Assembly: GCF_001467625.1 (NCBI RefSeq)
Contig: NZ_LNYB01000014.1
Coordinates: 1-64,000, forward strand
Length of the DNA: 64,000 bases
Reading direction: 5' to 3'
Source: Legionella feeleii
GTDB lineage: Bacteria; Pseudomonadota; Gammaproteobacteria; Legionellales; Legionellaceae
The position numbers and the translations under genes are program-made. Below the pieces are notes generated by a model. That model was not told the DNA's origin, ran no database searches, and worked only from the letters and a program-made list of their open reading frames with translations. Positions 35,305 through 52,483 of the stretch are shown piece by piece (positions within the stretch are counted from its first letter, which is position 1; each line of letters starts with the position of its first letter).

Positions 35305-38300
35305 TTAAAATTCTAATAAATCACCTCCAATGACTTCATTTAATAGGGAAGGTTCAATATTTTTCTCACTTAAACTCTTGTTGAGTTTGCTGGCTAAGGT
35401 TTGGATGTTAGGCTCGTAAAACATACTTTCGTGATCTCCTGGAACGATGTGGAGTTCGATGGGCCGTTTCGAATAATTTTCCCACCAATTTAAAGGGGCA
35501 TCATATTGAAACATCTCGGTCAGCTTTTCGGCTTTAAACAAGATTAATTGGCTATTAATAATAGGCAATTTGTATTGCGTTAACATTTTTTCCCTATGCC
35601 ACTGCAGGTCTAGCAAAAATTTAGAATTATAGACATTATTTTCTACATACTTTTTTAAGAGTCTCGAATTTTGTTCCTTCATGATGTCTTGGAAATAAAG
35701 CTCATTACTTTGAAGTGTGGGATAAAATGCCCAGCCATCGAGTGAGATAATGGCACTAACAGTTTCCCCTTTCTCCTCTAACTGTCTCGCCATTTCAATC
35801 GCGACAGTACTGCCAAATGATGAGCCGCCAAGCAAATAAGGGCCATAAGGATAAATAGCCTGAAGTGAATCGATGTAGGCGCTAGCCATCTCTTCCAGGG
35901 TATCAAAAATGAATTCGTTTTTATCAATGCCTGGGTCTTGTATCCCGTATAAGGGCCTTTCTTTGTCTAAATATTTAGCAAGAAGTTTGTACCAAAATAC
36001 ACTGCCGCCAATAGGGTGAACTAAAATGAGAGGTGTTTTATCCCCGGTTTCTTTGAGGGCAATAAAATTTTCAGATGGATTATAGAGAGTTAATCGTTCA
36101 TCCGCTGTACGAGTCTCCATTTCAATTTCTTTCGCCAAAGAGTGTATCGTTGAGAACTCAAAAAAATTTCTAAGGCTTAAACACACTGAAAATTGCTCCT
36201 GAATTAGCGAAATGATATTCATAGCGGAAAGTGAGTTACCTCCCAGCTCAAAAAAATCATCATGAATTCCAAGATGGTCAATTTTTAACACAGAGCACCA
36301 GATTTTTTTTAATTGCAATTCAATATCATTATTTGGCTCTGCGTAATCATTGCTGGAAGTCAATTGTTTACAGGGTGCGGGTAAATTCTTTCTATCTACT
36401 TTTCCGCTTGGGGTTATTAAAAATTTGTCTACAACAAAGAATCGGGAAGGGATCATGTAGTCAGGAATCATTGCTTTCAGGGTGGAGCGAATATCTGTAG
36501 CAGATAGTTGAGCGTTTTGATCCAGTACAACGTAGGCTGATAACGATATTGAATTATCAGAGCCAGGTTCTGGTATGACAATGCATTGACGAATGGAAGG
36601 AATTTTTTCCAAATGGGATTCAATTTCATTCACTTCTATCCTAAATCCGCGAATTTTGACCTGACTATCACGTCGACCAATATATTCTATAATTCCGTCA
36701 GATTGCCATTTGACTAGATCACCGGTTTTATACAACCTGTCATTCTTTTTGTTGCTGAACGGATTAGCTATGAATTTTTGCTGTGTAAATTCTTGATTAT
36801 TTAAATACCCGCGCGCTAAACCCTCCCCGGCGATGTAGAGCTCACCTGTCATTCCAATTGGCACAGGCTGCAGTTTGTCATCCAAAATATAGGCTTTTGT
36901 ATTAGAGATGGGTTTACCGATTCGACTTGCATCGCTTTCTGCATCCCCTGGGGTACAGGTCAGTGTTATTGCGTCAATAGTCGTTTCAGTTGGGCCATAG
37001 AGATTATGCAGTTTTGCTCCAGAGGCGTTATTTTTAAAAAAAGCACCGATTGTTTCTGGCAAAAGCGCTTCACCACCACAAAAGACCTGTTTAAGTGAAT
37101 GACAGCTATCAAAACCTGGTGTAGACACTAATTCTTTCAACATGGAAGGGACAAGCTGTAAAACACTCACCTGATTGTCTTTGACTAAATTAGTCATTTG
37201 GATGGGACTGGCATGAGCATCTGCTGGCGCTATTACGAGTTTACCTCCTATGAAGAGAGGCATAAAAAATTCCCAAACGGAGGCGTCAAATGAGAAGGGA
37301 GTCTTCTGTAGAAAGACATCCGTATTGCTAAAGGAATATTCTTTTTGCATCCAAACCATGTGATTACAAATAGCACGATGGGAAATCGCTACGCCTTTTG
37401 GTTTACCAGTTGTTCCTGATGTGTAAATAACATAAGCTAAATTTGAAAACTTGCTGACATGTTGTAGATTTTCATCCGGTAAATTTTTTAAATCCAGGAC
37501 GGAATTTATGTTAATAATTTGGCCTGTGTATCGATGAGGTCTTTTCTTTATTGATTGTTGATCCACGATTAATAGGTTTGCTTTACTATCATTCAGCATA
37601 TAGGAAATGCGTTCATCAGGATAATTGGGGTCTAAGGGAAGGTATGCCCCTCCTGATTTTAAGATTCCCAAAATACCAACAACCATTTCTATGCTGCGAT
37701 CTAAACAAATCCCTATCAAATGATCCTTCCGCACGCCCTGGCTTCTCAAGTAGCAAGCTAATTGATTCGCTTTTTGATTGAGCTCGAGATAACTAATTTC
37801 TGTACCTTGAAAAACAGCAGCGATTGAATCGGGCGTTTTAGTAACTTGTTCTTCAAAGTACTGATGTAGCAGTTTTTTATAGTTATATTTAAACCCTGTA
37901 TTATTCCAGGCATGCAGCACATTATTTCTTTCTTTTTTACCCATTATTGAAAGAAGGAAAATAGTTTTATCAGGATTATCAACTAAATCTTCCAGTAGTG
38001 TTAAAAAATGTCCATTCATATTTTCAAATAATGCATAAGAGCCAGGCGGTGAGTTGTCATTGACATTGCTATGAAAATGGAACCAGTCGTGATTTGCTGA
38101 GATAAAAATAGTTAATTTTTTATTCGTCTTGCAGGGGGGGGGATTGTTTGCATCGATGAACCTGATACTGGCGTCAATTTGACTGGAAGACTTTTTTAAT
38201 TGTGGGTAGCGAATAAAAATATCTTTGGTGTAGGTGCTCTTTTGCAACAGCTTTGTTTTTTCGATTGAGACCAATGTTAATACGTCCTTGAATGCCATAG

Positions 38301-39612
38301 TACTATCAAACCTGGTTGACAATGGGAGATGGTCTGATAAAAAATTATTCAGGAATAAAGGTTTCGATTGTAATTCCAGTGGGCTCAATTCTACGGATAA
38401 ATTTCTATAATTGTTTAGCCGGTATAAATAAATTAAGGTAGCTGTTAACAAGATGTTCTCTAAAGAATGACCATCACTCGATAGTTTCTTTAGTTTCTTT
38501 AGCAAGGTATTGGGAATTCTGGTTTTCATCTCGCCAAATACGGCAACTGATTCCCTGGGGCTCGGTAGTTTAGACAAAAATGAAATCTCTTCATGGGCGC
38601 ATTTTAAAAACTCATTAACCCAGAATTTTTCTACTTTAGGGTTTTGGGCAGGGCACGTTGATAATTTTTTGAGCAATCCGGCATCAATTGGGTCAAGCTT
38701 TGTATGGATAGTGATATTCAATAAATGAACCAATGTTGGAATATCGTAATTTTCTCCATCAAGATCAGTAAGCTCTAAAATGGCAATATCGAAGGTTGCG
38801 GTAGCTACTTGAATGTAACTCTTTGAAAGATTAACAATTGTTCCTGGCTCCATGCCTGAGATTGCATTTAATTTTTTTAACGCTTTTACGACAAAAATTT
38901 TTCCATTCATTATAATTTTGGGAACGACTAATTGATTTAAATAGTTTCCCATGGAGAGAGCCCTACACAATCGATCGATATCATCAGCGGATTTTTCCCA
39001 AGCGATAAACCCCAAATTAGCGGGCTTATCTTTCAGGCCGTAGTAGGAGCGGCATGATAAATTTTGTTTGACTGGTTTAGTGGTGTTAGTAGCAAGCTCA
39101 TCAACAAGTTCACGAAATGAGTGGATAGCCTTTTCGTAACATTTTAGATTTAAACTAAGTGCTGTATCAAAATCATCTATGGGAATGACGGGTTGTTTCA
39201 GGATATTACCGGCATCAATCCTTTCATCCATAATGTGCCAACTAATCGCATGTTGCGTTTCGCCATTAAGAATCGCCCAGGTGGTTGCATACAAACCAGC
39301 ATATTTGGGTAATGGAGAATTGTGATAATTTATAGCGTAATAACGCGGAAGCGCCAGAATTTCTTTGGAAAGGATTTCCCCATTGACTATGCTAAAGAGG
39401 AAATCAAATTTCCCACCCAGGTGTTTTTTTTCAAATTGCCTAACGCTCTCGATATAAGGAATAAAATTAGCAGTACACCATTTTTCGATTTTTTCTGACG
39501 GAGATATCAAACCAAGCAATTCATGGCCGCTAGCCAAGATAATATTTGCACATTCTAATGTCATATTATCGTCACCAATAATGTAACAGCTAAAGGTTTT
39601 TTTTGCGCTCAT
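35305..39612 (-). CDS. Single-module NRPS: formyltransferase - degenerate C - A - PCP - thioesterase
   Basis: A 1435-residue synthetase. Residues 1-200 are a formyltransferase domain with Asn-His (YAINYHNSPLPKYAG) and Asp (HIMDERIDAG) of the catalytic triad intact, followed by a Formyl_trans_C-like part. About 310-580 resembles a condensation domain lacking HHXXXDG. The adenylation domain (about 600-1090) has YTSGTTGKPKG, NLYGPTETT, YKTGDLV and ITPSGKVDRK. I read the pocket as DAWQFGLID-K, the code of the glutamine module of tyrocidine synthetase. A carrier site LGGNSLSA (Ser about 1126) and thioesterase GSSFG (about 1264) with a C-terminal GDHESMF histidine follow. Likely product: an N-formyl-Gln derivative, unknown. 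An upstream TTG (39624) is possible, but I prefer ATG 39612. Confidence 0.9.
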   Translation of the reverse strand: MSAKKTFSCYIIGDDNMTLECANIILASGHELLGLISPSEKIEKWCTANFIPYIESVRQFEKKHLGGKFDFLFSIVNGEILSKEILALPRYYAINYHNSPLPKYAGLYATTWAILNGETQHAISWHIMDERIDAGNILKQPVIPIDDFDTALSLNLKCYEKAIHSFRELVDELATNTTKPVKQNLSCRSYYGLKDKPANLGFIAWEKSADDIDRLCRALSMGNYLNQLVVPKIIMNGKIFVVKALKKLNAISGMEPGTIVNLSKSYIQVATATFDIAILELTDLDGENYDIPTLVHLLNITIHTKLDPIDAGLLKKLSTCPAQNPKVEKFWVNEFLKCAHEEISFLSKLPSPRESVAVFGEMKTRIPNTLLKKLKKLSSDGHSLENILLTATLIYLYRLNNYRNLSVELSPLELQSKPLFLNNFLSDHLPLSTRFDSTMAFKDVLTLVSIEKTKLLQKSTYTKDIFIRYPQLKKSSSQIDASIRFIDANNPPPCKTNKKLTIFISANHDWFHFHSNVNDNSPPGSYALFENMNGHFLTLLEDLVDNPDKTIFLLSIMGKKERNNVLHAWNNTGFKYNYKKLLHQYFEEQVTKTPDSIAAVFQGTEISYLELNQKANQLACYLRSQGVRKDHLIGICLDRSIEMVVGILGILKSGGAYLPLDPNYPDERISYMLNDSKANLLIVDQQSIKKRPHRYTGQIININSVLDLKNLPDENLQHVSKFSNLAYVIYTSGTTGKPKGVAISHRAICNHMVWMQKEYSFSNTDVFLQKTPFSFDASVWEFFMPLFIGGKLVIAPADAHASPIQMTNLVKDNQVSVLQLVPSMLKELVSTPGFDSCHSLKQVFCGGEALLPETIGAFFKNNASGAKLHNLYGPTETTIDAITLTCTPGDAESDASRIGKPISNTKAYILDDKLQPVPIGMTGELYIAGEGLARGYLNNQEFTQQKFIANPFSNKKNDRLYKTGDLVKWQSDGIIEYIGRRDSQVKIRGFRIEVNEIESHLEKIPSIRQCIVIPEPGSDNSISLSAYVVLDQNAQLSATDIRSTLKAMIPDYMIPSRFFVVDKFLITPSGKVDRKNLPAPCKQLTSSNDYAEPNNDIELQLKKIWCSVLKIDHLGIHDDFFELGGNSLSAMNIISLIQEQFSVCLSLRNFFEFSTIHSLAKEIEMETRTADERLTLYNPSENFIALKETGDKTPLILVHPIGGSVFWYKLLAKYLDKERPLYGIQDPGIDKNEFIFDTLEEMASAYIDSLQAIYPYGPYLLGGSSFGSTVAIEMARQLEEKGETVSAIISLDGWAFYPTLQSNELYFQDIMKEQNSRLLKKYVENNVYNSKFLLDLQWHREKMLTQYKLPIINSQLILFKAEKLTEMFQYDAPLNWWENYSKRPIELHIVPGDHESMFYEPNIQTLASKLNKSLSEKNIEPSLLNEVIGGDLLEF

Positions 39613-39916
39613 ACATATGCTCAATAGATAATTTGAAAATTAATATGCAAATCAAAACTCAAGTGGAAAACCAATTCATCTGAATGAAAAGCTACTCACC
39701 AGAACTAGTCGAGTGCGACGGTGATATGATGGCTCAGATGAGCTACATTAGCAGGTAGTATTTTATCATAAAATTGTTGTTAAACTAATCAATGACAATA
39801 AATTTGATTCAAAGTAGCTGGGATATGTTTTTGAAATCAATACGCTACGAAAATTTTTTAATGCTAGAGAGGGTAGGACTAAATTTTCCTTAACACGTCC
39901 TAAAGCCATCTCCGAA
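39613..39916. other. Upstream region of the NRPS gene
   Basis: About 300 bp with no ORF worth calling. It must hold the NRPS promoter on the minus strand, but I see no clear -35/-10 pair, operator or riboswitch. Confidence 0.4.
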
Positions 39917-40214
39917 AATTTAAAAATCGTCGAGTCAAGACTGTTTTTTTATTATTTATTTGTTTATGATGCCCCACCGAGGGCTTATTTTTTACGTCCT
40001 TACCTATTTGTGGATAATTCTTTACTCGCCTCGTCCATTTTTTATAATAAAACATCTAATTCTCATACGCCCCCCTTATTTTAAAAGGTTTTTGCCATTT
40101 TTTCTTTCATTATTGATTTTTACGTTATCCACAAAAACTGTGGATAAAAATGTGTATAGAGTGGTAAATCTCAATGAACTAAAGCAGTTGAGTAGGTGCT
40201 CAACAACTTAACAT
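39917..40214 (+). repeat. oriC-like non-coding element, copy A
   Basis: A ~300-bp element homologous along its length to 50793-51095. It holds three perfect DnaA boxes: TGTGGATAA at 40009-40017, TTATCCACA at 40125-40133 and TGTGGATAA at 40139-40147; the last two form an inverted pair with a five-base spacer. An AT-rich tract (GTCAAGACTGTTTTTTT) lies at the left end and a conserved GTGTATAG block follows the pair. A short ORF (39960-40211) over it is not conserved in copy B, so it is not a gene. No dnaA, rep or par gene lies near. Confidence 0.85.
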
Positions 40215-40363
40215 GGTTGATCATCCGCGAAACGCATAGATAGTTACGTACAGTGGCTACTGATGCTTATTGCTCCTGATTTGCGCTTTAAAATTAAGGC
40301 GGGCATACAGGAATTTTATTTTTTAACAGGAATTTAAACAAATCTTTAGAGAAGGAACTTAAA

Positions 40364-41776
40364 ATGAACAATAGAAGGCTACTGGCATTGGGTTTAAGTA
40401 TGTCGCTTGCAACCCAGGCTTGCCCTTTAATCTATGCCAAGCAGATTTATCCGGCAGAAGTTTTGGGAAGAGATCTGAACTTACCTGGACTTGGTTGGAT
40501 AGGTCATGTTGGTATTTCAACAACGTATAGGATGTCTCCTGAAGGTATGGGAAAAAATGCCGACCAGGTAATAGAGGTACTCAATGAAAATCCAGTAGGG
40601 CAAATTAATTCAATAAGCAATTTTAAAGCCCGCTCAAAATATTGGGGAAGTAAATTTGGACTTGCTGATAGAGGTATGATTGGTTATCGAGTGCTTGTCG
40701 AAGCAAATCATCAACGTTGGTGGTGCCCTAAATATACCTCTGATACCTACTATCATATTGGCTCAGGGGTTCCAACGACTGGTCAAGTCATAGAGTGTGG
40801 TACTTGGCGCTGTGATACTTATGCCTGGTGGGCATTTTATAGCCAAGGCATCGATACAATGCCGGGACGCGTTTGGTTACCAATAAAGGTGTTTCATGCA
40901 TTTCCTTATTATAATGACGAACGGAAAATAGACCTTCCTCTAAATAATTTAGATAATAATGTAAATAAAACCTTAGAGAATGTCACATCCGAAGAACTTA
41001 ATGCAATGCCATATGAGGAATTCCAAATGATCATGGATGCACCATCAGTACACTATGTAACGTCACCCTCCACCATTCAAATGCAATTTGCTTACGATTC
41101 AAACCTAAATGACGTTAAACGCGGAATTATGATAGATAGGCTCATTGCTGAAGATACCGAGCCCGATTTGGTCAAAAAATTGTTAAAATTATACAGTGAG
41201 TCAGACAGCATCGAAGTAAAAAACAAAATTGTTCAAGGTTTAATGCTTTATAATCAGAGGCATCGAAATGTTAAATCCTATATCAATAATGAGCAGCCCC
41301 TGCTAAAAGTTTTTTTTACTGAGCTTTTAAATTCCAAATCGTTAACCCCTAAGATGGCTGATGATGGTGTTAGAGGTTTTATCGATACCCATTCCCCTGA
41401 TGAAGTAATGGCTAATCTTGATAAAATTAATAAATGGCTGCGCGAGGTGGATCATTATTCGTCGATTATGCTGAAGTATACTTTGGTTCATAAGTCCAAA
41501 TCATTACAACGAATCTATATGAAATCGATAGTGAAAGAGCTTCGTGAGGCGAATAACTCGGATTTAGACAGTTATTTATTTGGTCCATTATCGATTGGGT
41601 ATAAAGGCACCGGAAAAAACCTGCTTGAACCAGAATCCAAGCAAATGGTCATAGACTATTTGCACGAGGTTCGTCATAAGTACAGTCCCCAAGGCATTCA
41701 GGCTAACCCAAACGATTCTCATCGTATAACCACCGCACCGTATTATTTTGAGTTAAAGAAGAACATGGGAATTTAA
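40364..41776 (+). CDS. Secreted protein, possible permuted NlpC/P60-like cysteine hydrolase
   Basis: A 470-residue protein with a signal peptide (about 1-25, ending YAKQ). The first half contains GWIGHVGIST (His48) and later ECGTWRCDTYAWWAF (Cys150). His before Cys in GHVGI and C-aromatic settings resembles the circularly permuted papain-like (YiiX/NlpC-P60) family, which cut amide or ester bonds; this is inference from motifs only. The second half (about 215-470) is helical and may be HEAT-like. Ribosome site AGAAGGAA precedes the ATG. It sits immediately right of the oriC-like copy A. Confidence 0.75.
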   Translation: MNNRRLLALGLSMSLATQACPLIYAKQIYPAEVLGRDLNLPGLGWIGHVGISTTYRMSPEGMGKNADQVIEVLNENPVGQINSISNFKARSKYWGSKFGLADRGMIGYRVLVEANHQRWWCPKYTSDTYYHIGSGVPTTGQVIECGTWRCDTYAWWAFYSQGIDTMPGRVWLPIKVFHAFPYYNDERKIDLPLNNLDNNVNKTLENVTSEELNAMPYEEFQMIMDAPSVHYVTSPSTIQMQFAYDSNLNDVKRGIMIDRLIAEDTEPDLVKKLLKLYSESDSIEVKNKIVQGLMLYNQRHRNVKSYINNEQPLLKVFFTELLNSKSLTPKMADDGVRGFIDTHSPDEVMANLDKINKWLREVDHYSSIMLKYTLVHKSKSLQRIYMKSIVKELREANNSDLDSYLFGPLSIGYKGTGKNLLEPESKQMVIDYLHEVRHKYSPQGIQANPNDSHRITTAPYYFELKKNMGI

Positions 41777-41861
41777 CCCCCGAGGCGCCAGACAATACTC
41801 TGGCACTCCAGTTCGGTCAAAAATTACGTACGTGGCTAATAGAGCTTGCCAACAAGCGTAG

Positions 41862-41881
41862 CCTGGTTGCTTGCAACCAGG
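41862..41881. repeat. Short palindrome CCTGGTTG-CTTG-CAACCAGG
   Basis: A perfect 8-bp inverted repeat with a four-base loop, preceded by AAGCGTAG just as the palindromes near 6960 and 31130 are. It is part of the same REP-like family. Confidence 0.7.
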
Positions 41882-41974
41882 ATTGCTGGGAAAATTATGA
41901 TTGTACAACTATTTGACGGGATCGTTCAGGCCCTGACCCCCATAGTTCCAAGGTACAACTTTAGGTTTTTCTCG

Positions 41975-42232
41975 TTAAAATCCCCTCGCTGCTAACCCTG
42001 TTTCTTCCTCGGTTTTGCCCTTAACCAAAGTAATAGCCGAACGAGTTAGCAGAGTTAATGTATCAAAAATAGAACTTAAAAGAAGAAAAGTTGGTAAAGC
42101 TAAACTTGTTTTTAACAATTGACCCGAGCACTCCAAGGAATCAGCTGAACAGTCCGATTTAGACATTGAAAGTTCAACGACAGATTTGACCGCATAAATT
42201 GCAGACAATGCAGCAAATCCAGTGAAAACCAT
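41975..42232 (-). CDS. Small hydrophobic protein, doubtful
   Basis: An 85-residue ORF with two hydrophobic segments (about 1-18 and 40-65) and two cysteines between them. There is no ribosome site in front of ATG 42232, and the frame stays open a further 16 codons upstream without a start codon, so it may be the remains of a longer gene. It diverges from, and overlaps at its start with, the antitoxin-like ORF. I recognise no family. Confidence 0.35.
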   Translation of the reverse strand: MVFTGFAALSAIYAVKSVVELSMSKSDCSADSLECSGQLLKTSLALPTFLLLSSIFDTLTLLTRSAITLVKGKTEEETGLAARGF

Positions 42233-42254
42233 AGCGGAAATAGCTAAATTAAGT

Positions 42255-42449
42255 ATGAAAACATTATCAGAAACAAATCCTTATCTACAGGATAAGGAAC
42301 AAGCTAAGCGCTTAAATGCTCGTTCTACAAGAACTTCTTGTGGGGTGGAAGGCATTAAAGCGAAAGATAAAGGTTTGACTCTGAAAATCGACCATTCTCG
42401 TTCAAGTGCTGTTTTAGAAGAAATGAAAAAAAGGCTGCATAAAAGCTAA
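42255..42449 (+). CDS. Small ORF with Fic-antitoxin-like inhibitory motif
   Basis: A 64-residue product, MKTLSETNPYLQDKEQAKRL then NARSTRTSCGVEGIK. The stretch SCGVEG fits the (S/T)XXXE(G/N) inhibitory motif that class I Fic antitoxins (VbhA type) place over the Fic ATP site, and NPYL-D-RL resembles the start of that helix region. It converges on the Fic fragment and their stop codons overlap by four bases. A GTG at 42222 would add 11 residues. Class I antitoxins normally precede fic on the same strand, so the opposite orientation is odd. Confidence 0.5.
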   Translation: MKTLSETNPYLQDKEQAKRLNARSTRTSCGVEGIKAKDKGLTLKIDHSRSSAVLEEMKKRLHKS

Positions 42450-42751
42450 CTAGCTCTTAGTATCTCCACGAACACTTCTTTAATTGGTTCGTAATTTCCC
42501 ATTACCCCATAATGTATTGCTTGAATATATTTGTTATAGCCCTCTGTATTAGTGGTTTTATCAATGGGCTCAAAATTCAATTGTGGTAATCCAGCCTGCA
42601 TTGCCATTATATTCGCCAGTAACCTTGAAACTCTTCCATTTCCATCTCTAAACGGGTGGATAATAATTAATTCAACATGAACAACACCCAACGCGTTAGC
42701 AAGTTCATCATACATTTTAAAAAATAATCGGTAATCATTTGCATGGCATAT
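42446..42751 (-). pseudogene. Truncated Fic/DOC protein, C-terminal part
   Basis: A complete Fic motif HPFRDGNGRVSR lies within an 89-residue ATG-started ORF (42715). Homologous-looking sequence continues in frame upstream of that ATG (ICHANDYRLFFK), then stops abruptly at about 42751 where a palindromic repeat begins; a stop codon follows further upstream. So the N-terminal part of the gene is gone, and the ATG at 42715 is probably internal. The Fic core alone might still fold, but helices before HANDY are missing. It is unlike the intact Fic at 31323. Confidence 0.8.
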
Positions 42752-42776
42752 GGGATCAGGACTTGACCCTGACTTC
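42749..42776. repeat. Shortened copy of a CAGGGCTTGA palindrome, at the fic break
   Basis: Read on the minus strand, GAAGTCAGGG then TCAAGTCCTGATCCCATA matches the two outer ends of the palindromic element at 45280-45333, with the middle ~28 bases missing. Its edge coincides with the point where the Fic homology ends. Confidence 0.6.
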
Positions 42777-42896
42777 CATTACGTTTTTTCGACTCATACT
42801 CCCAAGACAACATCGCGCAGCGAAGGCATCATAGGGTTGTTAAAAAAAGTAATAGCGTGATAAATTGAATTTTTCTAATAACAGGGAAGGTCAAGG

Positions 42897-45239
42897 ATGA
42901 GATATCTGCACGTTGGATTAGGTATTTTAACGGCGGCAACAGGGATGGCGCATGCTTCGCTGCAATCCACTATGGCCCAACCCACAACCTGTATTACTTC
43001 TCAATTCAGTGCTACTGGGAGTCAATACTGGAAGTCAATTGTTTTAAAGTTGACGAATAATTGCAATCAGGCCGTCGATTTTCAAAATACAACGATATCG
43101 TTTCAGACAACCGACGCATTAAATACGTCCTTTTGGGGTGATTTTTCACCGTTGTCTTACCCTGACAATGCATTAAATATTACTTCACAACAACAGCCTG
43201 ACAATCGGTTTTTAGCAACCTTTAACCTGCATTTCCCGAGTTTCTCTGGTGCCAATAGCCTCTTACCCATCGGCAGCTCTATTTCAATTAAATATGGGGC
43301 AACTACCGATAGCCATATAGAAGGGACTACCAAAGTTTATCTTAGCACGGGAGTAGAAACAGGCAGTATTCAAGTCACTAATTCCTCAGCAAAGCCAACG
43401 AATGTTTCGCAAAATTATGCAATGGTTCATTTGACAATGAATGGTCAATCGGTCGGCGATATCCAGTTACCTTGGCAAAGTTCAAAAACGTTATCGGGTC
43501 TTGCTGCCGGTAATTATAAAATTTCAGCCGATACAGTCACCGACAGCGCTGGCAATAATTATGTCGGCCAGGCCAATCCCAGCAGTGTTAATTTAGTTGC
43601 CAATCAGACAGTGAGCTCAATCATTAGTTATGCACAGCGGCAGCAACAGGGGAAATTACGCATCAATTTGCAAAATTTGCCTAATGAGATAGCCGGTTAC
43701 AGTGGCAATCCATCTGTCTTAATTACCCAGGGCACCTCAGGGAACTCGCAAACCCAATCATTAACCTGGGGCAATGCGACAACCGTCTCTCAACTGGCTG
43801 AGGGTTCAACTTACCAATTCGCCACATCGACCATTAATTACAATGGTTACAACTGTTTGCCAACCTTTACTCCGACCTCTTTAGAGGCCAACGCGACCAA
43901 CGTCCCGGTTACTAATTTAACCTATCAATGTATTCAGGTAGCACAAGATTCTGTGCGATTAGAGGTTAATGGCGCACCGACTTCTTTATCTGCGTTAAAA
44001 ATTACTTTAACACCCAATAACGGTTCACAATCTGTCGAACAAATTGTCGATTTAACGAATGGCAGTGGCTCAGCGTCTGTCTCTTTAACCGATGGCGTTA
44101 TCTATACTGTTTCAAGTGATACGGTATCTGGTTACGCGGTACGATTTTCCCCTCAGCCTTTAACAGCCACTCCAGATGCCGTTGAAATAATTACCTTAAC
44201 TCAAGAAGTTGCTTCGGGTGGACGTATTATTGGTTATATCCCTGGCTGGAAAACCCCGCCTACCGCTCAGGCATTAGCCAATGCGGGATATACCCATGTC
44301 ATGATTGCCTTTGGAGTATTCAGTACAAGTACACCTGGAGTCATCACGCCGGCTTTCGATACCGTTACGGAAGACTATATCCAGTCGCTTCATGGCGTTG
44401 GAATTAAAGTTCTTCTTTCTTTAGGCGGTGCTTTAACAAGCCTCCCTAATACAAGTGTTGATTTTCATCAAGTATTAACTGCCGCTGCTTCACCAGAAGG
44501 CTTTAAACAAACCTTTATTAATTCGTTAAATGGCTTAATCACGCAATATCATTTTGATGGTTTTGACATCGATATTGAGCACGGCATTAATGGTGGTGGG
44601 ACTTTTTCTCAACCACAAGGGGATATTGCTGTACTCGCTAGTATTATCAATACGATGCACAATCAAAATCCTTCGCTCCTGATTACCTTAACACCGCAGG
44701 TTGCTAATGTCGCAGCCACAAGGGGGTTTGATCAGACCTGGGGCAATTATGCTTCGTTAGTGATGCAAACTCATGCCTCGCTGGCCTGGGTTGGGATTCA
44801 GCTTTACAATACAGGCTGTGCATTTGGTATAGATCTCATATGCTACGGTCCCACGCCTACCAATACCCCTGATTTCTCTGTCGCGATGGCTACTGATTTA
44901 CTGGCAAATTGGCCTGCTAGGGTGAATGGACAAAATACAGGCTTTCAGCCTTACATTAGCCACTTACAACCGTCACAAGTTGTCATTGGTTATCCTTCTT
45001 CTAACGCAAGTGGACAAAGTGACGGCTCGCCTGTAATGCCGACCGCCACGATTAAGCGTGCAATTCAATGCCTTAAAACAGCGGTTGCTGGTAATACAAG
45101 CTGCGGCAGTTATATTCCACCGCAAGCCTATGGCAATATTGGCGGTGTCTTTAATTGGGAAGTCACTTATGATCAAAATAACAGTTTCAAATTTGCGACG
45201 GAACTAAAAAACTGTGTCATTAATGGGGTTTGCAATTAA
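42897..45239 (+). CDS. chiA: Secreted GH18 chitinase, ChiA-like
   Basis: A 780-residue chitinase resembling L. pneumophila ChiA, a type II secretion substrate of about the same length. It has a signal peptide (about 1-20), an N-terminal carbohydrate-binding-like beta domain (about 25-160), two or three further beta modules (about 160-435), and a C-terminal GH18 barrel starting GGRIIGYIPGWK. The catalytic motif FDGFDIDIEHG (DXXDXDXE) is intact with the proton-donor glutamate about residue 560. L. pneumophila ChiA promotes lung persistence. Ribosome sequence CAAGG precedes the ATG. A perfect palindrome follows the stop. Confidence 0.92.
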   Translation: MRYLHVGLGILTAATGMAHASLQSTMAQPTTCITSQFSATGSQYWKSIVLKLTNNCNQAVDFQNTTISFQTTDALNTSFWGDFSPLSYPDNALNITSQQQPDNRFLATFNLHFPSFSGANSLLPIGSSISIKYGATTDSHIEGTTKVYLSTGVETGSIQVTNSSAKPTNVSQNYAMVHLTMNGQSVGDIQLPWQSSKTLSGLAAGNYKISADTVTDSAGNNYVGQANPSSVNLVANQTVSSIISYAQRQQQGKLRINLQNLPNEIAGYSGNPSVLITQGTSGNSQTQSLTWGNATTVSQLAEGSTYQFATSTINYNGYNCLPTFTPTSLEANATNVPVTNLTYQCIQVAQDSVRLEVNGAPTSLSALKITLTPNNGSQSVEQIVDLTNGSGSASVSLTDGVIYTVSSDTVSGYAVRFSPQPLTATPDAVEIITLTQEVASGGRIIGYIPGWKTPPTAQALANAGYTHVMIAFGVFSTSTPGVITPAFDTVTEDYIQSLHGVGIKVLLSLGGALTSLPNTSVDFHQVLTAAASPEGFKQTFINSLNGLITQYHFDGFDIDIEHGINGGGTFSQPQGDIAVLASIINTMHNQNPSLLITLTPQVANVAATRGFDQTWGNYASLVMQTHASLAWVGIQLYNTGCAFGIDLICYGPTPTNTPDFSVAMATDLLANWPARVNGQNTGFQPYISHLQPSQVVIGYPSSNASGQSDGSPVMPTATIKRAIQCLKTAVAGNTSCGSYIPPQAYGNIGGVFNWEVTYDQNNSFKFATELKNCVINGVCN

Positions 45240-45282
45240 TCCCGGGTTGCGCGCCGTTTGAAAGAGGGGCGTGTAAACGAAG

Positions 45283-45327
45283 TCAGGGCTTGAATTTTGT
45301 ATTCAACAATCAAAATTCAAGCCCTGA
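45283..45327. repeat. Perfect 17-bp palindrome after chiA
   Basis: TCAGGGCTTGAATTTTG (45283-45299) and its exact reverse complement (45311-45327) flank an 11-base loop. No T-run follows, so it is more a dispersed palindromic repeat than a plain terminator. Related pieces occur at 42749-42776 and, weakly, at 41925-41945 (CAGGCCCTGACCCCCATAG). Confidence 0.85.
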
Positions 45328-45593
45328 TCCCATAGGTACTCCATAGTAAGAAAATTCAGAGAATAGCACTCAGAGTAATGGCAGGAATAGAAACGCAGTT
45401 GTTAATTGAAACGCTTTGTAGAGGAGCTAATTTGCTCCTTTAGTGTCTGCTGAATTCTAAAAATTCATTGCAAGACACTAAAGAATCAAATAGTATAAAA
45501 AGCGCGTTTGAAGTATTAAATGCAACAAGCGCTGACAGAGAGGAATTCGAGCGCCTCCCCGCCAGCTGACCAAATTTATCACAGGAGATAAAG

Positions 45594-45686
45594 ATGGCTA
45601 AAGGAATCTTAGTCTATTTCAGTTTTATATTTCAATGGCATGTCCGTAAGAAGCCACCAAAATTTCCCATTATTTACATCGGTTGA
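45594..45686 (+). CDS. Possible 30-residue peptide
   Basis: A short ORF, MAKGILVYFSFIFQWHVRKK followed by PPKFPIIYIG, starts 7 bases after a strong ribosome site (CAGGAGATAAAG). It has a hydrophobic N-terminus and basic middle, and lies in the 590-bp gap before the luxR-type gene. It could be a membrane peptide, a leader peptide or chance. No family is recognised. Confidence 0.3.
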   Translation: MAKGILVYFSFIFQWHVRKKPPKFPIIYIG

Positions 45687-45762
45687 ACATTAAGGGCATG
45701 GTTTACAGCGTGCTTTTAATTCGCTTTTAGCCAGAAATCTTAATTATTTCAGCGACTAGAGA

Positions 45763-45794
45763 CACAGGAATTATTTTTTTCAGTAATTCCTGTG
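45763..45794. repeat. Hairpin upstream of the LuxR-type gene
   Basis: CACAGGAATTA (45763-45773) and TAATTCCTGTG (45784-45794) form an 11-bp perfect stem with a T-rich loop, 36 bp before the ATG of the regulator. It might be an operator for the regulator itself or a transcript hairpin. Confidence 0.55.
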
Positions 45795-45829
45795 CTAAGT
45801 CACACCTTTTAAAAAATAACGGAAGAATA

Positions 45830-46195
45830 ATGGTGAAAACAAAGCAAGAAACCTTGAGGAAAACGAATTTAATCGACAGTCCCTTTTTTAAAGTGTTTGC
45901 AAAGAATTACCTGGACTACTTAGGGAATAGCAATCCTACCCATAAACAGCTAGCTGAAATCCAGGCCTTACTGTCCAATACCTGGATACGACTTCCGATT
46001 TGTTTCGACCTACGTTTAAGTGAGCAGGAAAAACAGTGCCTGTATCTATCCGCACAAGGTAAAGAGGTGAAAGAAATAGCTGCGTTTTTAAAGGTATCCA
46101 CCCGAAGAGTGACTCAGCATCGGCAATCCATCTTTCAAAAATTGAATTGTAAAAATATAACCAGTGCAATTATTGTCGGGCTGCGGTTTGGGTAA
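45830..46195 (+). CDS. LuxR-type DNA-binding protein
   Basis: A 121-residue protein whose C-terminal 65 residues form a LuxR/FixJ helix-turn-helix: LSEQEKQCLYLSAQGKEVKE, IAAFLKVSTRRVTQHRQSIF, QKLNCKN. The N-terminal half (about 1-55) is short and lacks a receiver or autoinducer domain. Such truncated LuxR proteins occur in Legionella as stand-alone regulators. ATG 45830 follows CGGAAG. It may regulate the divergent or adjacent genes of this island (chitinase, GGDEF), which is inference. Confidence 0.82.
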   Translation: MVKTKQETLRKTNLIDSPFFKVFAKNYLDYLGNSNPTHKQLAEIQALLSNTWIRLPICFDLRLSEQEKQCLYLSAQGKEVKEIAAFLKVSTRRVTQHRQSIFQKLNCKNITSAIIVGLRFG

Positions 46196-46359
46196 TCAAA
46201 GCTGAACATCTATTAGACGAAAAGTAGATTGCTTGGGTAGATGGCAAATTCCAGATGGGGGAGATGTAAGATGTGAATCTTGATATAAATTTTGTTGTAC
46301 AACTATTTAAAATAAGTAGGACATTTGGCGTATTGGGACAATAAAACGATGCTTTATTA

Positions 46360-46452
46360 AGCATAATCCTGCTATATTCTGATTAATAAAAAGTAAGATT
46401 ATTAATCATGAAATGGAATTGGCAGCTTGAGAATTGGCCTGATTATACTTGA
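46360..46452 (+). pseudogene. Promoter and first 14 codons of a second fic gene
   Basis: From about 46360 the sequence follows the upstream region of the intact fic gene: TGCTATATT -10, half-site GATTAATAAA (46381-46390), then ATG 46408 and a peptide MKWNWQLENWPDYT that ends at TGA 46450-46452. The intact protein reads MKWNWQLEDWPNFTWD at this place. The ribosome site AGGAGG is changed (AAGTAAG) and the rest of the gene is missing. This is a decayed paralogue whose promoter survives best. Confidence 0.85.
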
Positions 46453-46674
46453 ATCAAAAATAATTGTTGTTGCGGACAGCAGACGCAATGCCATCTCATC
46501 GACCCTATCCACTGCCATTAGGGATCAATGTAGCACTAGACGAAATTCAAACGTTTAAAGGCGTGTTATTCGATTCTGATGGAGTCAATGCTGGTCAAAA
46601 ATGATTTCTCGAAAAACCGATCTTTAAGGTGAAATTAAAGTTGGATATTCTTTTGGATTAGGAGCACTGGATTT
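46453..46674. other. Gap between the fic remnant and the GGDEF gene
   Basis: A 38-codon ORF (46488-46604) beginning MPSHRPYPLPLGINVALDEI lacks a ribosome site and looks like debris of another gene. The promoter of the GGDEF gene must lie nearby, but I cannot place it. Confidence 0.35.
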
Positions 46675-47964
46675 ATGTCCGATAAAATTGATGAAAAGGA
46701 GTTACCATTTAAATCGGTTCTTGATCAGACTGATGATGTCGTTATCATCACTGAAGTTGAACCTCTCAATGAGCCATTTGGTCCAAAAATTCTTTATGTT
46801 AACAATGCATTTACAACACTTACTGGGTATACCCAGGAGGAAGTTCTAGGTAAAACACCCCGTATTTTACAAGGAGATAAAACCGATAAAAACACGCTAA
46901 AACGAATCAGGACAGCGTTGGAAAAAAAAGAAGCTATCCATGTTGAATTATTAAACTATGCCAAAGATCAAACAGAATATTGGCTCGATTTTACTATTAT
47001 CCCTATTAAAGATAGTAAGGGGAGGATTCAGTATTTTGCTGCGATTGAACATGATATTACTGAGCGAAAAAAACTGGAAGATGCAAAGGCTATGCTTTCT
47101 GCTCTTGTTGAGTTTTCAGGGGAAGCAATCATAGGAAAAAACCTGGAAGGGATCATACAAAGCTGGAATAAAGCAGCCAGGAATCTTTACGGTTACACTG
47201 AAAAGGAAGCCATAGATGCTAATATAAAAATGCTATTTCCTAAGGAGAGGCAAGGAGAGCTTCAAGATATCATGGACAAAATTGTTAGGGATGAACACAT
47301 CAAAGGCTTTGAAACAGTCAGAATGCATAAAGATGGTCATATTATTCCAGTTTCTCTTACGATAGCGCCAATAAAAAATGCGCGAGGAAAGATAATAGGG
47401 GCATCAACAACCGCTCGCGATATTACCCAACAAAAAATAAACGAAGAAAAATTAAAACACCTCGCGGAGCATGATGTTTTGACAGGATTGATTAATCGAC
47501 CACTCTTTGAAGATCGCATGGTTCAAGCACTTGCTATTGCAAAAAGAACAAATTGTAATATGGCAGTTTGTTTTTTAGACATCGATGGGTTTAAAAATAT
47601 TAATGATACTTACGGTCACAATATAGGGGATTTGGTATTGTGCACTGCAGCTAAATGCATGCAAAAATGTATACGGGACATTGATACCTTGGCACGGTTT
47701 GGTGGCGACGAATTTGCATTAATATTGTCCTACCTCAATGAAGAAAAGGATGTTATTAAAATAGTGAAGAAGTTAATTCATTTATTCTCAAAAGGATTTT
47801 TGATTGAAAATTATAAACTGAAAGTTACTTTGAGTATTGGTATTTCATTGTACCCTAGAGATGGCATGAATGATCTTCTTAAGAAAGCGGATGCTGCGAT
47901 GTATTACGTGAAAAAACACGGCAAGAATAATTTTATTTTTTTCAATGCAATTGATAAGGACTAA
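46675..47964 (+). CDS. PAS-PAS-GGDEF diguanylate cyclase
   Basis: A soluble 429-residue c-di-GMP synthase. Two PAS domains (about 10-130 and 135-255, with PAS signatures YVNNAFTTLTGYTQEEVLGK and GYTEKEAIDAN) precede a GGDEF domain with the canonical RFGGDEFAL site and an I-site RDID five residues before it, so product inhibition is likely. The first PAS has features near those of flavin-binding LOV domains (TGYTQEEVLGKTPRILQG), but the GXNCRFLQ cysteine motif is not present. ATG 46675 follows TAGGAG. No EAL domain is attached. Confidence 0.9.
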   Translation: MSDKIDEKELPFKSVLDQTDDVVIITEVEPLNEPFGPKILYVNNAFTTLTGYTQEEVLGKTPRILQGDKTDKNTLKRIRTALEKKEAIHVELLNYAKDQTEYWLDFTIIPIKDSKGRIQYFAAIEHDITERKKLEDAKAMLSALVEFSGEAIIGKNLEGIIQSWNKAARNLYGYTEKEAIDANIKMLFPKERQGELQDIMDKIVRDEHIKGFETVRMHKDGHIIPVSLTIAPIKNARGKIIGASTTARDITQQKINEEKLKHLAEHDVLTGLINRPLFEDRMVQALAIAKRTNCNMAVCFLDIDGFKNINDTYGHNIGDLVLCTAAKCMQKCIRDIDTLARFGGDEFALILSYLNEEKDVIKIVKKLIHLFSKGFLIENYKLKVTLSIGISLYPRDGMNDLLKKADAAMYYVKKHGKNNFIFFNAIDKD

Positions 47965-48081
47965 TTCAGGTTGGTATTATTTGTCCTGAAATTATGGATA
48001 AACACTCTAGTGGCATTTTCTGTGAATAGACAAAATAAAGGGATTACAATAAGCTTCAATGTTTAAAGAGGAGCTTCTCAT

Positions 48082-48552
48082 ATGAGTCTTACAATCTCCT
48101 ATCTTAAAAATCATCCTCACGTAATTCCTGCTCTTGCAAAGATTTGGCATTCTGTTTTGGGACGTGTTTGGGTGCCAGACATTCCCATCGAACGTGTCGA
48201 GCAGCGTTTTCGTGATCATTTAAACGATGTCTTATTGCCAATGACCTTTGTTGCTTTTGATGGAAATAAACTCGTAGGTAGTGTTTCTTTACGTGAAAAT
48301 GATGGAATACATCCGCATTTGACGCCCTGGCTTGGTTCTCTTGTGGTCGATACAGCCTATCAAAAATGTGGTATTGGAAAAATGCTAATTGATGTCACCA
48401 AGCAAAAGGCCATTGAATTAGATTTTAAGCAATTGTACCTGTTTACTTTCGATCCAACACTTCCTGCTTATTATGTGCGACAGGGATTTAATAAAATTGG
48501 TATGGATGAATTTAGAGGCCATCCTGTCACTGTGATGGAAACAGGGCTGTGA
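48082..48552 (+). CDS. GNAT family N-acetyltransferase
   Basis: A 156-residue acetyltransferase. LGSLVVDTAYQKCGIGKMLIDVTKQKAIE contains the acetyl-CoA loop (QKCGIGK), followed by LFTFDPTLPAYYVRQGFNKIG. The N-terminal SLTISYLKNHPHVIPALAKI pattern with a conserved tryptophan is as in small-molecule GNATs. It lies between the two GGDEF genes on the same strand, 117 bp after the first. Substrate unknown. The opposite-strand ORFs are shadows. Confidence 0.88.
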   Translation: MSLTISYLKNHPHVIPALAKIWHSVLGRVWVPDIPIERVEQRFRDHLNDVLLPMTFVAFDGNKLVGSVSLRENDGIHPHLTPWLGSLVVDTAYQKCGIGKMLIDVTKQKAIELDFKQLYLFTFDPTLPAYYVRQGFNKIGMDEFRGHPVTVMETGL

Positions 48553-48754
48553 GCCGTTATTGGCTAAAGTCAATTGCTTTCTTTTGAAGCAGGGGCTCCT
48601 ATCCCGGAAATCCGCAGCAAACTCTCTTGCAAATCTCCGCATTCTTCTTACAGGAGTATAGAGTTCTTTGAGCTGAATGATTAAATCTTATGCTATCATT
48701 TACTATGTCTTATTGATTATATCTCTTGAGGCCAAGGATCGGTAATGAGCGGAC

Positions 48755-50728
48755 ATGAAAAACAAAGACATTCAACATTTCAAAGAAGACGCTAAAGCCA
48801 TTTTGGAAGCAGTTCCGGATTTGTATCTTATTTTATGCCCCAAATTGAATATTGTTGGTGCAAGCGATGCTTATCTTAAAGCCACGATGCGGAAACGAGA
48901 GGAAATACTGGGACAACCTATCTTCGATATTTTTCCTGACAATCCTGATGATCTGTCGGCAACGGGTGTCACTAATTTGCGTTACTCTTTAAATCGGGTA
49001 TTAGAAGACAAAGTTTGTGATGCGATGGCTATACAAAAATACGATATTCGACGTCCTGCTGCTTTAGGCGGAGGGTTTGAGGAAAGATACTGGAGTCCTA
49101 TTAATTGCCCCATTCTGGATCAAGATAACCGCGTAAAATACATTATTCACCGAGTCGTGGATGTAACAACATTTATTCATCAGCAAGCTCATGACGCCCA
49201 ATCAAAAACGATGGAAATATTGCAAAGTCATGAGGGGCAGGTTGGTTTGGAAATCATGGAGAGAGCTAATAATATTCAAGAAGTTAATAAAACTTTGCAA
49301 GAAAAAGAGGGGTATAATTCGGCTTTTTTATCTGCTATTCCTGATGCAATGATTTTAGTGAATCGAGATGGAAAAATTGAATTTAGTAATAATCAGGCAG
49401 AAGTCATGTTTGGCTACACCAAAAAGGAATTATTAGGACAAGCAGTCGAGTTATTAATGCCTGAAAATGCGGCTAAAATACATCCTCAGCATCGTGAGGA
49501 TTATTTTAATGCACCACGTGTACGTCCCATGGGGCTTGGCATGGAGCTTCAAGGAAAGCGAAAAAATGGGGAAATATTTATCATTGAAATTAGTTTAAGT
49601 CCGTTGCAAACCCCTCAAGGAGGGAGTGCTATCGCGATTATCCGCGATGTAACTCTGCGAGTTGAACAAAACAGATTATTACAACAAAAAGAAAAGTCTC
49701 TCAGAGAATTGTATGAAACGGTTGAGAAAGAAAAATCGCAACTTAAATCGATAAATCAAAAGATGTTTACCATTACACAATTAAGTGAAACTTTTCTTGC
49801 ATGCAACACAATTGATGAAATACTGGAGTCCTTCTCATCGTTTGCTAATAAAATTCTGGGTTTCTCCAAGGGTGCTTTATATCTAATGCATAATTCACGC
49901 AACTATCTGGAGAAAAAAATTACATGGGATGATGTAAATCACTATCCAGTGATTTTTTCTTCGAATGAATGTTGGGCTTTGAGACGAGGCTGTATCCATG
50001 AAATCAGTGAGGTGCAACCGGGGGTTATATGTCGGCATATCAAAGAGATGAAACAAGAACAGCAAGCATCCTTGTGCATACCCTTAATGGCTCAAAATGA
50101 AATACTGGGTCTGTTATTTATTAACAGGGATTCCGACGAACAGAATACGTTAATTCCAGTGGTTGCAGAAACAGTTTCACTAGCCATTGCAAATATCAGA
50201 TTAAAAGAATTACTTCACTCCCAGTCCATTCGTGATCCACTGACCGGCTTATTAAATCGTCGCTTTCTTGACGAATTTATGATCAAGCAAATAGGGCAAG
50301 CAAAACGTACCAAGACATCGTTGGTATTTATTATGGTTGATATTGATAATTTTAAAGCAATCAATGATAGTTTTGGCCATGAAATAGGGGACTATGTATT
50401 ATCTCGCCTGGGTAATTTACTTCCGTCTTTAGTTCGAGAAGGTGATTTGGCGTGTCGCTACGGTGGTGAAGAGTTTTTAATTGTTATACCGAACTGCGAT
50501 CCTCAGAATGCAAAACTCTTTGCTGAAAAAATTCGAAATAAAGTGGGCAGCATGCGGATTGTGATTGAAGAAAGGGTTTCTAATATTGCTATATCACTAG
50601 GGGTTGCAATCTATCCAAGCGACGGTTCTTCATTGAAAGAGTTAGTCGATGCAGCCGACCAGGCATTATATGCAGCTAAAAGACAAGGTAAAAATAAGAC
50701 AATTATATTCACTGAAATTAATAAATAA
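48755..50728 (+). CDS. PAS-PAS-GAF-GGDEF diguanylate cyclase
   Basis: A 657-residue soluble protein. It has an N-terminal PAS-like domain (about 8-140), a short coiled linker, a second PAS (about 185-310, FSNNQAEVMFGYTKKELLGQ), a GAF domain (about 350-500) and a GGDEF domain with YGGEEFLIV and I-site REGD. The GAF domain keeps a cysteine-rich stretch (CWALRRGCIHEI...VICRHI...ASLCIP) that parallels the one in the protein at 12209-14350 (CWSIRRGQIYHY...IPCQHV...YVCIP), so the two share a GAF-GGDEF module. The cysteines could bind a ligand or metal. It ends just before the oriC-like copy B. Confidence 0.9.
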   Translation: MKNKDIQHFKEDAKAILEAVPDLYLILCPKLNIVGASDAYLKATMRKREEILGQPIFDIFPDNPDDLSATGVTNLRYSLNRVLEDKVCDAMAIQKYDIRRPAALGGGFEERYWSPINCPILDQDNRVKYIIHRVVDVTTFIHQQAHDAQSKTMEILQSHEGQVGLEIMERANNIQEVNKTLQEKEGYNSAFLSAIPDAMILVNRDGKIEFSNNQAEVMFGYTKKELLGQAVELLMPENAAKIHPQHREDYFNAPRVRPMGLGMELQGKRKNGEIFIIEISLSPLQTPQGGSAIAIIRDVTLRVEQNRLLQQKEKSLRELYETVEKEKSQLKSINQKMFTITQLSETFLACNTIDEILESFSSFANKILGFSKGALYLMHNSRNYLEKKITWDDVNHYPVIFSSNECWALRRGCIHEISEVQPGVICRHIKEMKQEQQASLCIPLMAQNEILGLLFINRDSDEQNTLIPVVAETVSLAIANIRLKELLHSQSIRDPLTGLLNRRFLDEFMIKQIGQAKRTKTSLVFIMVDIDNFKAINDSFGHEIGDYVLSRLGNLLPSLVREGDLACRYGGEEFLIVIPNCDPQNAKLFAEKIRNKVGSMRIVIEERVSNIAISLGVAIYPSDGSSLKELVDAADQALYAAKRQGKNKTIIFTEINK

Positions 50729-50792
50729 TAAGTCAGATGGTTATTTTGATAGGGTGTGCAAGTTAAGTAGTTAACCACTTGATTGCCTATCT

Positions 50793-51095
50793 AAATTTAA
50801 AAATTGTAGAGTCAAGACTGTTTTTTTAATATTTATTTGTTTATCATCGTCCACGGATAATTCTTTTTTTATTTTCTTATAAAGCCTGTGGATAATTCTT
50901 TAGTATTCCCGCCTATTTTTTAGGAAAAAATCCTTTTTAATAATTAAAAAGCCTTATTTTAAAAGGGCTTAACAAAACTCTGTATGGATTGTTGTTCATT
51001 TACCTTATCCACAATATCTGTGGATAAGGTTGTGTATAGAATGCTAAATCCTAATGGACTAATACAGTTACTCATGTGCTCAATTACTTAACACG
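50793..51095 (+). repeat. oriC-like non-coding element, copy B
   Basis: Direct-repeat partner of 39917-40214. It starts AAATTTAAAAATTGTAGAGT, has the same GTCAAGACTGTTTTTTT tract, and holds perfect DnaA boxes TGTGGATAA (50887-50895), TTATCCACA (51005-51013) and TGTGGATAA (51019-51027), plus a near-match at 50852. The inverted pair has the same five-base spacing as in copy A, and the distance from the first box to the pair is nearly equal (118 versus 116 bp). It occupies the gap between converging genes. Confidence 0.85.
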
Positions 51096-51148
51096 ATTCC
51101 CTTCGTTAAGAACGCGATGAGGTAGCTGGAAACCCCTAACCCAATTTG

Positions 51149-52483
51149 CTAGTACTCCCATGGTGGTTTAGGGGTAGTTGGGTAAGCGGTGGGTGTTTGT
51201 GTTTTTTCAACCTTCTCGGTTGTTTGATCGCCTGGTTGCTCTTCATTCTGCATGGCAGACCTTGTCTTGTAGGCCCTTTCCTTTAATTCCGGGTTTAAAA
51301 TTTTGGGATTTAATCCGTGAAAATCAGTGCCGTCTAATTCTTCGACGTTCCGAGCAAAGCCATAGGTTGGGAAAAAGTAATTAAGTGCGGGCTCTAACGT
51401 AGAAGGTAAGACGTGTTCGGCAAGGATATGACCATTGTGCGAATTGGAGAAATAAACAGTCGTTGCTATACAACGTTGAGTGTGCGGATTTATTTCGGCA
51501 CCAAAACCAGCCCTTGCTTTATTCATGTCGCCGGTGTGGTAAGCGCCTATGATTTGGCCCTGGCCATTTTTGACTAACCCTATGCCTAGACCCCAAGTCA
51601 CCTGTTCTCTATCGCTTTCAGAAACCCTCACTTTTTCAACCAGCTTATCTTCTGAATAGGGGAAGAAATCGTTGATCATCGAATAAATGGGTTCAATAGG
51701 CCTGAAGGCATAATTTAATTGGTCGTCATTGATCCAGGCGGTTATGAATTTGGCATAGTCTTCCGCTGTTGTTCTCAGACTGTTGGCTGCGACAGGTTTC
51801 GGGCCATAGCTACTGTTTGGCATATTTAAAGCCCGCGGCCCAAATACGTACTCTTGAGCTAATGTTTCCAGATCCACACCGGTCAGCTCTTTAATTGCTC
51901 CTTGCAAGCAGTCAATACCAGGTCCTGAATAGGCATAATATTTACCCGGTGGAAACTGGAATTTAAACGGCTCTTCATCCGTGATATGTAAACCAGTTCT
52001 ATGGGATAGTACCATTTCAGCGCTCAAGCATTTTGCCTGATCGTTCTGGTTAGGGAGAAATCGCTTGAGGAAGGGGTTTTCGTCATCTGAAATGATTTGT
52101 CCTTCCGTATCCCGAAACAGAGTATACAAAGGCGTTTTTAAATCAAATTCAGTCTTAAATTTCCCCAGGAATTCAGGTCGCTCTCTGTTGATTTTATTCA
52201 TTTCGATTAATTTCAAGACCAAATAAGCAAAGACGGGTTTACTCAGCGAAGCAGCCTCAAAAATTGTTCCGGGCTTAACAGGAGTAGGGGAGGACGCTTC
52301 TGTGCCAAGCGTTTCTCCTATGGGCATCGTAAAAATGCCCCCATTTTTACAAGCAGCAACAGCTGCTCCCATGATCTTGCTTGATCTCATTAAATGCTGA
52401 GTCGACTCGCGGGTAATTCCATTAACCTCTTCTACTTCCTGAATTTGAATGGTGTCTTCAGGTTCAAATTTTTCGGTAGACAT
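51149..52483 (-). CDS. Beta-lactamase-fold serine hydrolase without signal peptide
   Basis: A 444-residue class C beta-lactamase/esterase-type hydrolase. The SXXK motif is SLSK (Ser79-Lys82), with a tyrosine motif YSG in FPPGKYYAYSGPGID and AYHTGDM as the likely KTG-box equivalent. It has no signal peptide (the N-terminus MSTEKFEPEDTIQ is acidic and polar), so it acts in the cytoplasm or is exported another way; a Dot/Icm effector is possible. The last 50 residues are proline- and threonine-rich and disordered. Substrate unknown; an antibiotic-resistance role is unlikely. Confidence 0.85.
   Translation of the reverse strand: MSTEKFEPEDTIQIQEVEEVNGITRESTQHLMRSSKIMGAAVAACKNGGIFTMPIGETLGTEASSPTPVKPGTIFEAASLSKPVFAYLVLKLIEMNKINRERPEFLGKFKTEFDLKTPLYTLFRDTEGQIISDDENPFLKRFLPNQNDQAKCLSAEMVLSHRTGLHITDEEPFKFQFPPGKYYAYSGPGIDCLQGAIKELTGVDLETLAQEYVFGPRALNMPNSSYGPKPVAANSLRTTAEDYAKFITAWINDDQLNYAFRPIEPIYSMINDFFPYSEDKLVEKVRVSESDREQVTWGLGIGLVKNGQGQIIGAYHTGDMNKARAGFGAEINPHTQRCIATTVYFSNSHNGHILAEHVLPSTLEPALNYFFPTYGFARNVEELDGTDFHGLNPKILNPELKERAYKTRSAMQNEEQPGDQTTEKVEKTQTPTAYPTTPKPPWEY

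Follow-up and report, generated by a model that had tools for sequence, protein, structure and literature searches.

This 64,000-nucleotide stretch of Legionella feeleii DNA (contig NZ_LNYB01000014.1; hereafter the window) raises the question of why two homologous clusters of DnaA boxes, away from any obvious replication origin, lie within it. A sequence-only reading had proposed copies of the chromosomal origin oriC, datA-like sites that titrate DnaA, or a non-autonomous element that happens to carry DnaA boxes. From the arrangement of the boxes we consider it probable that the two elements are instead DnaA-reactivating sequences (DARS), in a modified form that has expanded in the Legionella family. 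The earlier idea of a DnaA-control element outside oriC survives in this identification, while the particular options named for it fit less well. DARS sites convert ADP-DnaA back to ATP-DnaA, and two of them are known in E. coli.

Box architecture of the two elements

The two elements (copy 1, 39917..40214; copy 2, 50793..51095; both on the + strand) can be aligned over ~300 bp in the same orientation, with 72% identity. The window contains seven instances of the consensus box TTATCCACA where 0.56 would be expected, and none of 100 shuffles reached that number; six of the seven fall inside the elements, three in each, beginning at 40009, 40125 and 40139 in copy 1 and at 50887, 51005 and 51019 in copy 2. 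The homology, the rarity of perfect boxes by chance, and the presence in each element of three such boxes that include an inverted pair with a five-base spacer had all been pointed out in the sequence-only reading and are borne out here. The right end of both copies reads TTATCCACA-N5-TGTGGATAA-N3-TGTGTATAG. Box I (TTATCCACA; 40125..40133 and 51005..51013, + strand) and box II (TTATCCACA; 40139..40147 and 51019..51027, - strand) face each other across five bases in both copies, and a conserved GTGTATAG block that had also been remarked upon is real and proves to be itself a degenerate DnaA box (TGTGTATAG on the + strand), placed 3 bp past the inverted pair. It forms the third box of the core (box III; 40151..40159 and 51031..51039, - strand).

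The same geometry recurs throughout the genus. Perfect inverted box pairs 0–30 bp apart number 77 in 22 genus genomes, and the spacer is 5 bp in 76 of them. Our set of genus cores comprises 75 of these 76 exact pairs with their surroundings (one core from genome G021 is absent, as are three single-mismatch cores that were excluded). A box III lies exactly 3 bp past the pair on one side in every core at a match of at least 5/9, and in 71/75 at a match of at least 6/9, the side being the better of the two for each core, which slightly favours the count; the opposite side reaches 5/9 in six cores. Both window copies and 75/75 genus cores have three boxes, of which box I is oriented against the other two. 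A search of a class sample of 369 genomes for perfect inverted pairs 0–30 bp apart matched 160 genomes; among the matches listed, 69 of 75 places have the 5-bp spacer, none of the 75 being in the genus, and a control search read backwards gave one place in each of two genomes.

This is the layout of the E. coli sites. The cores measured in E. coli K-12 are TTATCCACT-N5-TGTGGATAA-N3-TGTGTATTA for DARS1 and TTATTCACC-N5-TGTGGATAG-N3-TGTGAAGAA for DARS2, and their box orientation and both spacings (5 and 3 bp) are those of the window cores. The excerpts available of the relevant papers describe a box spacing shared by DARS1 and DARS2 and a box I that points the opposite way from II and III (PMC5742627), and head-to-head contact at DARS between the DnaA molecules on boxes I and II (PMC5742627; PMC8682772). 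A core model built from sequence only, trained on the 75 genus cores with no E. coli sequence included, was run against 223 kb of E. coli DNA covering the DARS1, DARS2, oriC, datA, polA, purH, nrdA and nrdD regions. Its best match was DARS1 (E 1.6e-4, positions 1–33 of 35). The oriC, datA, polA, purH and nrdD regions gave partial matches, and the nrdA region gave none.

The upstream module and how the elements might work

Conservation extends beyond the core on the side of box I. The motif AGTCAAGACTGTT, allowing up to three mismatches, is found upstream of box I in 62/75 cores compared with 6/75 in a downstream control, at a distance of 189–195 bp in 52 of the 62, placing the module near -191. 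The conserved stretch reaches ~30 bp and takes in the AGTCAAGACTGTTTTTTTA tract at the left end of the elements; in copy 1 it is AGTCAAGACTGTTTTTTTATTATTTATTTG (39933..39962, + strand, 192 bp before box I) and in copy 2 AGTCAAGACTGTTTTTTTAATATTTATTTG (50810..50839, + strand, 195 bp before box I). Between module and core lies a further DnaA box, box IV, which is TTATCCACA at 40009..40017 and is found at 50887..50895 in copy 2 (both on the - strand), so that boxes I, II and IV are all perfect consensus in both copies. Across the genus a box IV matching at least 8/9 positions is present upstream in 68/75 cores (downstream control 8/75), and in 61 of the 68 it lies 115–120 bp before box I, at about -118.

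The module and the core go together closely. An exact 15-mer from the module, GTCAAGACTGTTTTT, has 56 copies in 20/22 genus genomes. Forty-seven lie 150–230 bp before a core that was already listed, and the remaining nine are followed, 176–191 bp downstream, by a degenerate core scoring 21–26 of 27. Of 300 random stretches, 297 scored 11–16, and the three that scored 27 we take to be overlaps with real elements. All 56 copies in the 22 genomes are therefore followed by a core 150–230 bp downstream. Among loci from a scan of named genomes, 97 cores had the module and the pair correctly spaced on a single strand, and in 94 of these box III was on the far side.

Orthologue sets from three species, compiled for copy 1, for copy 2 and for a copy that lies next to recG in 15/22 genus genomes (recG identified by NCBIfam), show where conservation is concentrated. 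Identical columns number 30–32/32 in the module (30/32 for copy 1, 31/32 for copy 2), 31–34/35 in the core and 38–42/45 just after the core, compared with 17–33/42 from module to box IV, 64–78/108 from box IV to core and 40–78/100 to the left of the element, where the recG set takes in the end of recG. The module was also considered as an IHF site. By eye it is three mismatches from the consensus, and the canonical IHF consensus is not enriched, occurring in 6/75 elements and in 3/75 of a somewhat shorter control region; this candidate was rejected. A search of 39600-51400 for structured RNA yielded nothing in Rfam at gathering scores.

By analogy with E. coli, we infer that the elements would bind DnaA and promote release of ADP from ADP-DnaA. 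Two ADP-DnaA molecules would sit head to head on boxes I and II with a further molecule on box III; contact between AAA+ domains would loosen the ADP, and apo-DnaA would depart, take up ATP and become able to initiate at oriC. In E. coli DARS2 the switching is done by IHF and Fis. Here box IV and the module, held at a near-fixed distance from the core, probably serve to place a DNA bend or an accessory protein through which the core is switched on. Those near-fixed distances are suggestive of a folded complex, and the putative accessory protein is not obviously IHF.

Copy number, genomic setting and alternative readings

The window's genome contains eight exact copies of the pair and four more with one or two mismatches. 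The whole-genome count that the sequence-only reading had called for thus reveals a small family with conserved boxes rather than a general repeat of hundreds of copies in which the boxes have decayed. Both window copies are intergenic, and their orthologues in two further species (genomes G004 and G021) have the same neighbouring genes. A second shared site, used in seven genomes, has folM-like and pterin-synthase-like genes nearby, frequently with a dus gene as well, labels that are our reading of the sequences. Distances were measured in seven genomes that each have a single contig of chromosome size, taking oriC to be near dnaA. In these the recG copy is 0.15–0.24 genome lengths away from dnaA, and all copies range from 0.03 to 0.48; the window-copy orthologues in G004 are at 0.380 and 0.382. 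In E. coli, DARS2 is 0.206 and DARS1 0.329 genome lengths from dnaA, and the Legionella copies likewise occupy positions between origin and terminus, as is characteristic of DARS.

Some cores are arranged in tandem. Triplets spaced 402–417 bp apart occur in six other Legionella genomes; five have recG on one side and a cation-efflux gene on the other, and in the sixth, L239, the sequence stretch examined shows the efflux gene alone. A scan of named species for the module plus the pair returned 84 stretches, and among the 80 listed all belong to Legionella, Fluoribacter, Tatlockia or Legionellaceae except three, from one unclassified gammaproteobacterial metagenome-assembled genome and two Dokdonella. 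The Dokdonella stretches (L227, L242) were rejected as carriers of the full element, their module having the wrong strand with respect to box III, and are probably coincidence.

Several further observations concern the surroundings of the copies. In four stretches from three species (L100, L107, L111 and L122) a gene of cluster c21, exonuclease-like by eye, ends ~230–260 bp before the core and was possibly carried along as the copy spread. Two near-identical degenerate pairs on short contigs (G000:C86:5822 and G000:C90:10851), with AGTGGATAA as second box, resemble each other on the left side of the pair but not on the right; they are perhaps a separate repeated element. In the window, the two genes preceding copy 2 (46675-47964 and 48755-50728) encode PAS and diguanylate-cyclase domains, and the gene after that copy has only a weak match to a class C beta-lactamase model.

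How far do other explanations account for these elements? One that we think rather unlikely, and that keeps the datA-like option of the sequence-only reading alive as a rival, is that they are titration sites, dispersed clusters of strong boxes that would sequester DnaA or stimulate ATP hydrolysis once replicated. The perfect boxes I, II and IV in both copies and the multi-copy pair would suit such a sink, and copies lie within 0.06 genome lengths of dnaA in five of the seven measured genomes. Pure titration, however, needs neither a spacer held at 5 bp in 76/77 pairs nor a third box at exactly 3 bp, and the layout and spacing are those of DARS1 and DARS2, whereas the E. coli datA region matches the core model only partly. 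According to the part of PMC4585315 that was available, datA depends on an IHF site, but canonical IHF sites are hardly commoner in the elements than in the control.

It is very improbable that the copies represent a non-autonomous mobile element or a relic plasmid origin in which the DnaA boxes are incidental. Dispersal at one to eight copies per genome and tandem repeats about 400–417 bp apart would be natural for such an element, but there are no consistent terminal inverted repeats (one imperfect 21-nt pair at copy 2 has no counterpart at copy 1), the recG copy and the window copies keep their places across the genomes and species given above, and orthologue conservation peaks in the module, the core and the 45 bp after it. 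Slighter still is the chance that these are DnaA-controlled promoters sharing an upstream regulatory block. Copy 1 does lie between divergent open reading frames (35305-39624, - strand, and 40364-41776, + strand), and boxes II and III resemble the double box with 3-bp spacing that E. coli DnaA prefers, as reported in the available portion of PMC11317965. Copy 2, though, is flanked by convergent frames (48755-50728, + strand, and 51149-52483, - strand) and so is upstream of neither neighbour, and the neighbouring gene clusters differ among most copies of one genome. Copies of oriC, finally, they almost certainly are not, for despite their DnaA boxes and AT-rich tracts they are neither single-copy nor next to dnaA, which lies on contig C80 where there is no pair even at two mismatches, the core model matches nine dnaA loci no more than partly, and blastn of the elements against ten loci (these nine and a second, shorter DnaA-like match) gives a best E of 0.043.

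The identification as DARS has to be set against several results that weigh on the other side. The core model does not retrieve the E. coli DARS2 core, which fits by layout only, and two-box matches at polA, datA and purH reach E 0.001–0.003 (polA best), only roughly tenfold weaker than DARS1. The dnaA loci of the genus also match the model partially, down to E 1.4e-4. The module is missing, at up to three mismatches, from 13/75 cores. Canonical IHF sites, which DARS2 needs, are not enriched, and for this reason we do not file the elements as DARS2. The perfect boxes could simply titrate DnaA. In E. coli, oversupply of DARS2 leads to extra initiations and growth inhibition, as described in the available parts of PMC4245941 and PMC5742627, which makes eight copies surprising unless each is weak or regulated.

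If the elements are DARS, a more tentative proposal, to which we would give somewhat less than even weight, is that the Legionella family may recharge DnaA in a distributed, dosage-based way, from many copies and some tandem triplets, each gated by a protein that binds the AGTCAAGACTGTTTTTT module and replaces the IHF/Fis switch. Were this so, the successive replication of the copies, together with control by the module protein, would tune ATP-DnaA to growth phase. The up to eight dispersed copies and the natural tandem triplets would offer a dosage series for how DnaA recharging sets the time of initiation. An accessory factor is suggested by the module, whose exact 15-mer was always accompanied by such a core in the 22 genomes searched. 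In the open-licence PMC literature we found no paper joining DARS (or DARS2) and Legionella, and none joining Legionella pneumophila, IHF and Fis1. DARS-type elements are a known kind; their occurrence here in many copies and in tandem triplets, and the module, seem to be novel.

Related sites outside Legionella and comparison with E. coli

A 30-base, two-site pattern that fits both E. coli cores (TTATNCACN6TGTGGATAN4TGTG) was used for counts across wider samples. It matches all 22 genus genomes, with 1–8 places each and 71 in total (reversed-pattern control zero), and the window's genome and G004 have eight each; the next highest count in the class sample is four. The pattern is present in 160/369 class genomes, with no match in a backwards-read control, and in 79/398 genomes of a phylum sample. 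In family f183, which we take to be Enterobacteriaceae, two places are found in 11 of 17 genomes, one in three and none in three (1.0–1.2 Mb); the matches are of two types, DARS1-like and DARS2-like, some of them letter-identical to E. coli. The available text of PMC8682772 describes DARS-type sites in E. coli and in related bacteria, Vibrio and Shewanella among them, and the matches in f183 and in the class suggest that DARS may be more widespread than described. The class count from the core model (301/369, E<=0.01) was not used for this purpose, since it includes partial two-box matches.

Other occurrences were noted in passing. Fifteen genomes of the same phylum outside the class match the two-site pattern, seven of them in family f211, with f215 also represented. 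Paired cores lie 380 bp and 594 bp apart at G253:C209:4937-5346 and G309:C81:374-997, the first in a genome from a different family of the class and the second in one from a different genus of the window's own family, so that tandem DARS-like sites extend beyond the triplet-bearing species. Thirty-three viral contig stretches (L265–L297) carry a core of the form I-N5-II-N3-TGTG with perfect boxes I and II, in none of which was the Legionella-type module found at up to two mismatches; these may be phage-borne DARS or the host flanks of prophages.

Among the known E. coli systems, datA resembles the elements in being a cluster of DnaA boxes away from oriC, and differs in matching the core model only partly and in its IHF dependence, the elements having no enrichment of canonical IHF sites. 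DARS2, beside mutH, has the box order and spacing of the elements and likewise has conserved DNA beyond its core, and its relative distance from dnaA is similar to that of the recG-linked Legionella copy. Its core letters differ from the Legionella core, however, and IHF consensus sites are recorded for it in the accessible part of PMC4245941. The extra conserved region lies on the box I side in Legionella, whereas in the DARS2 sequence used for comparison an additional perfect box stands on the side of box III. Closest is DARS1, beside bioD and upstream of uvrB, which has the box order, orientation and spacing of the elements and very similar letters (33 of 35 model positions aligned). Of the DARS1 core boxes, box II alone matches the consensus perfectly, whereas boxes I and II both do in the Legionella elements, which, unlike DARS1, also have a fourth box and the module on the box I side and reach up to eight copies per genome.

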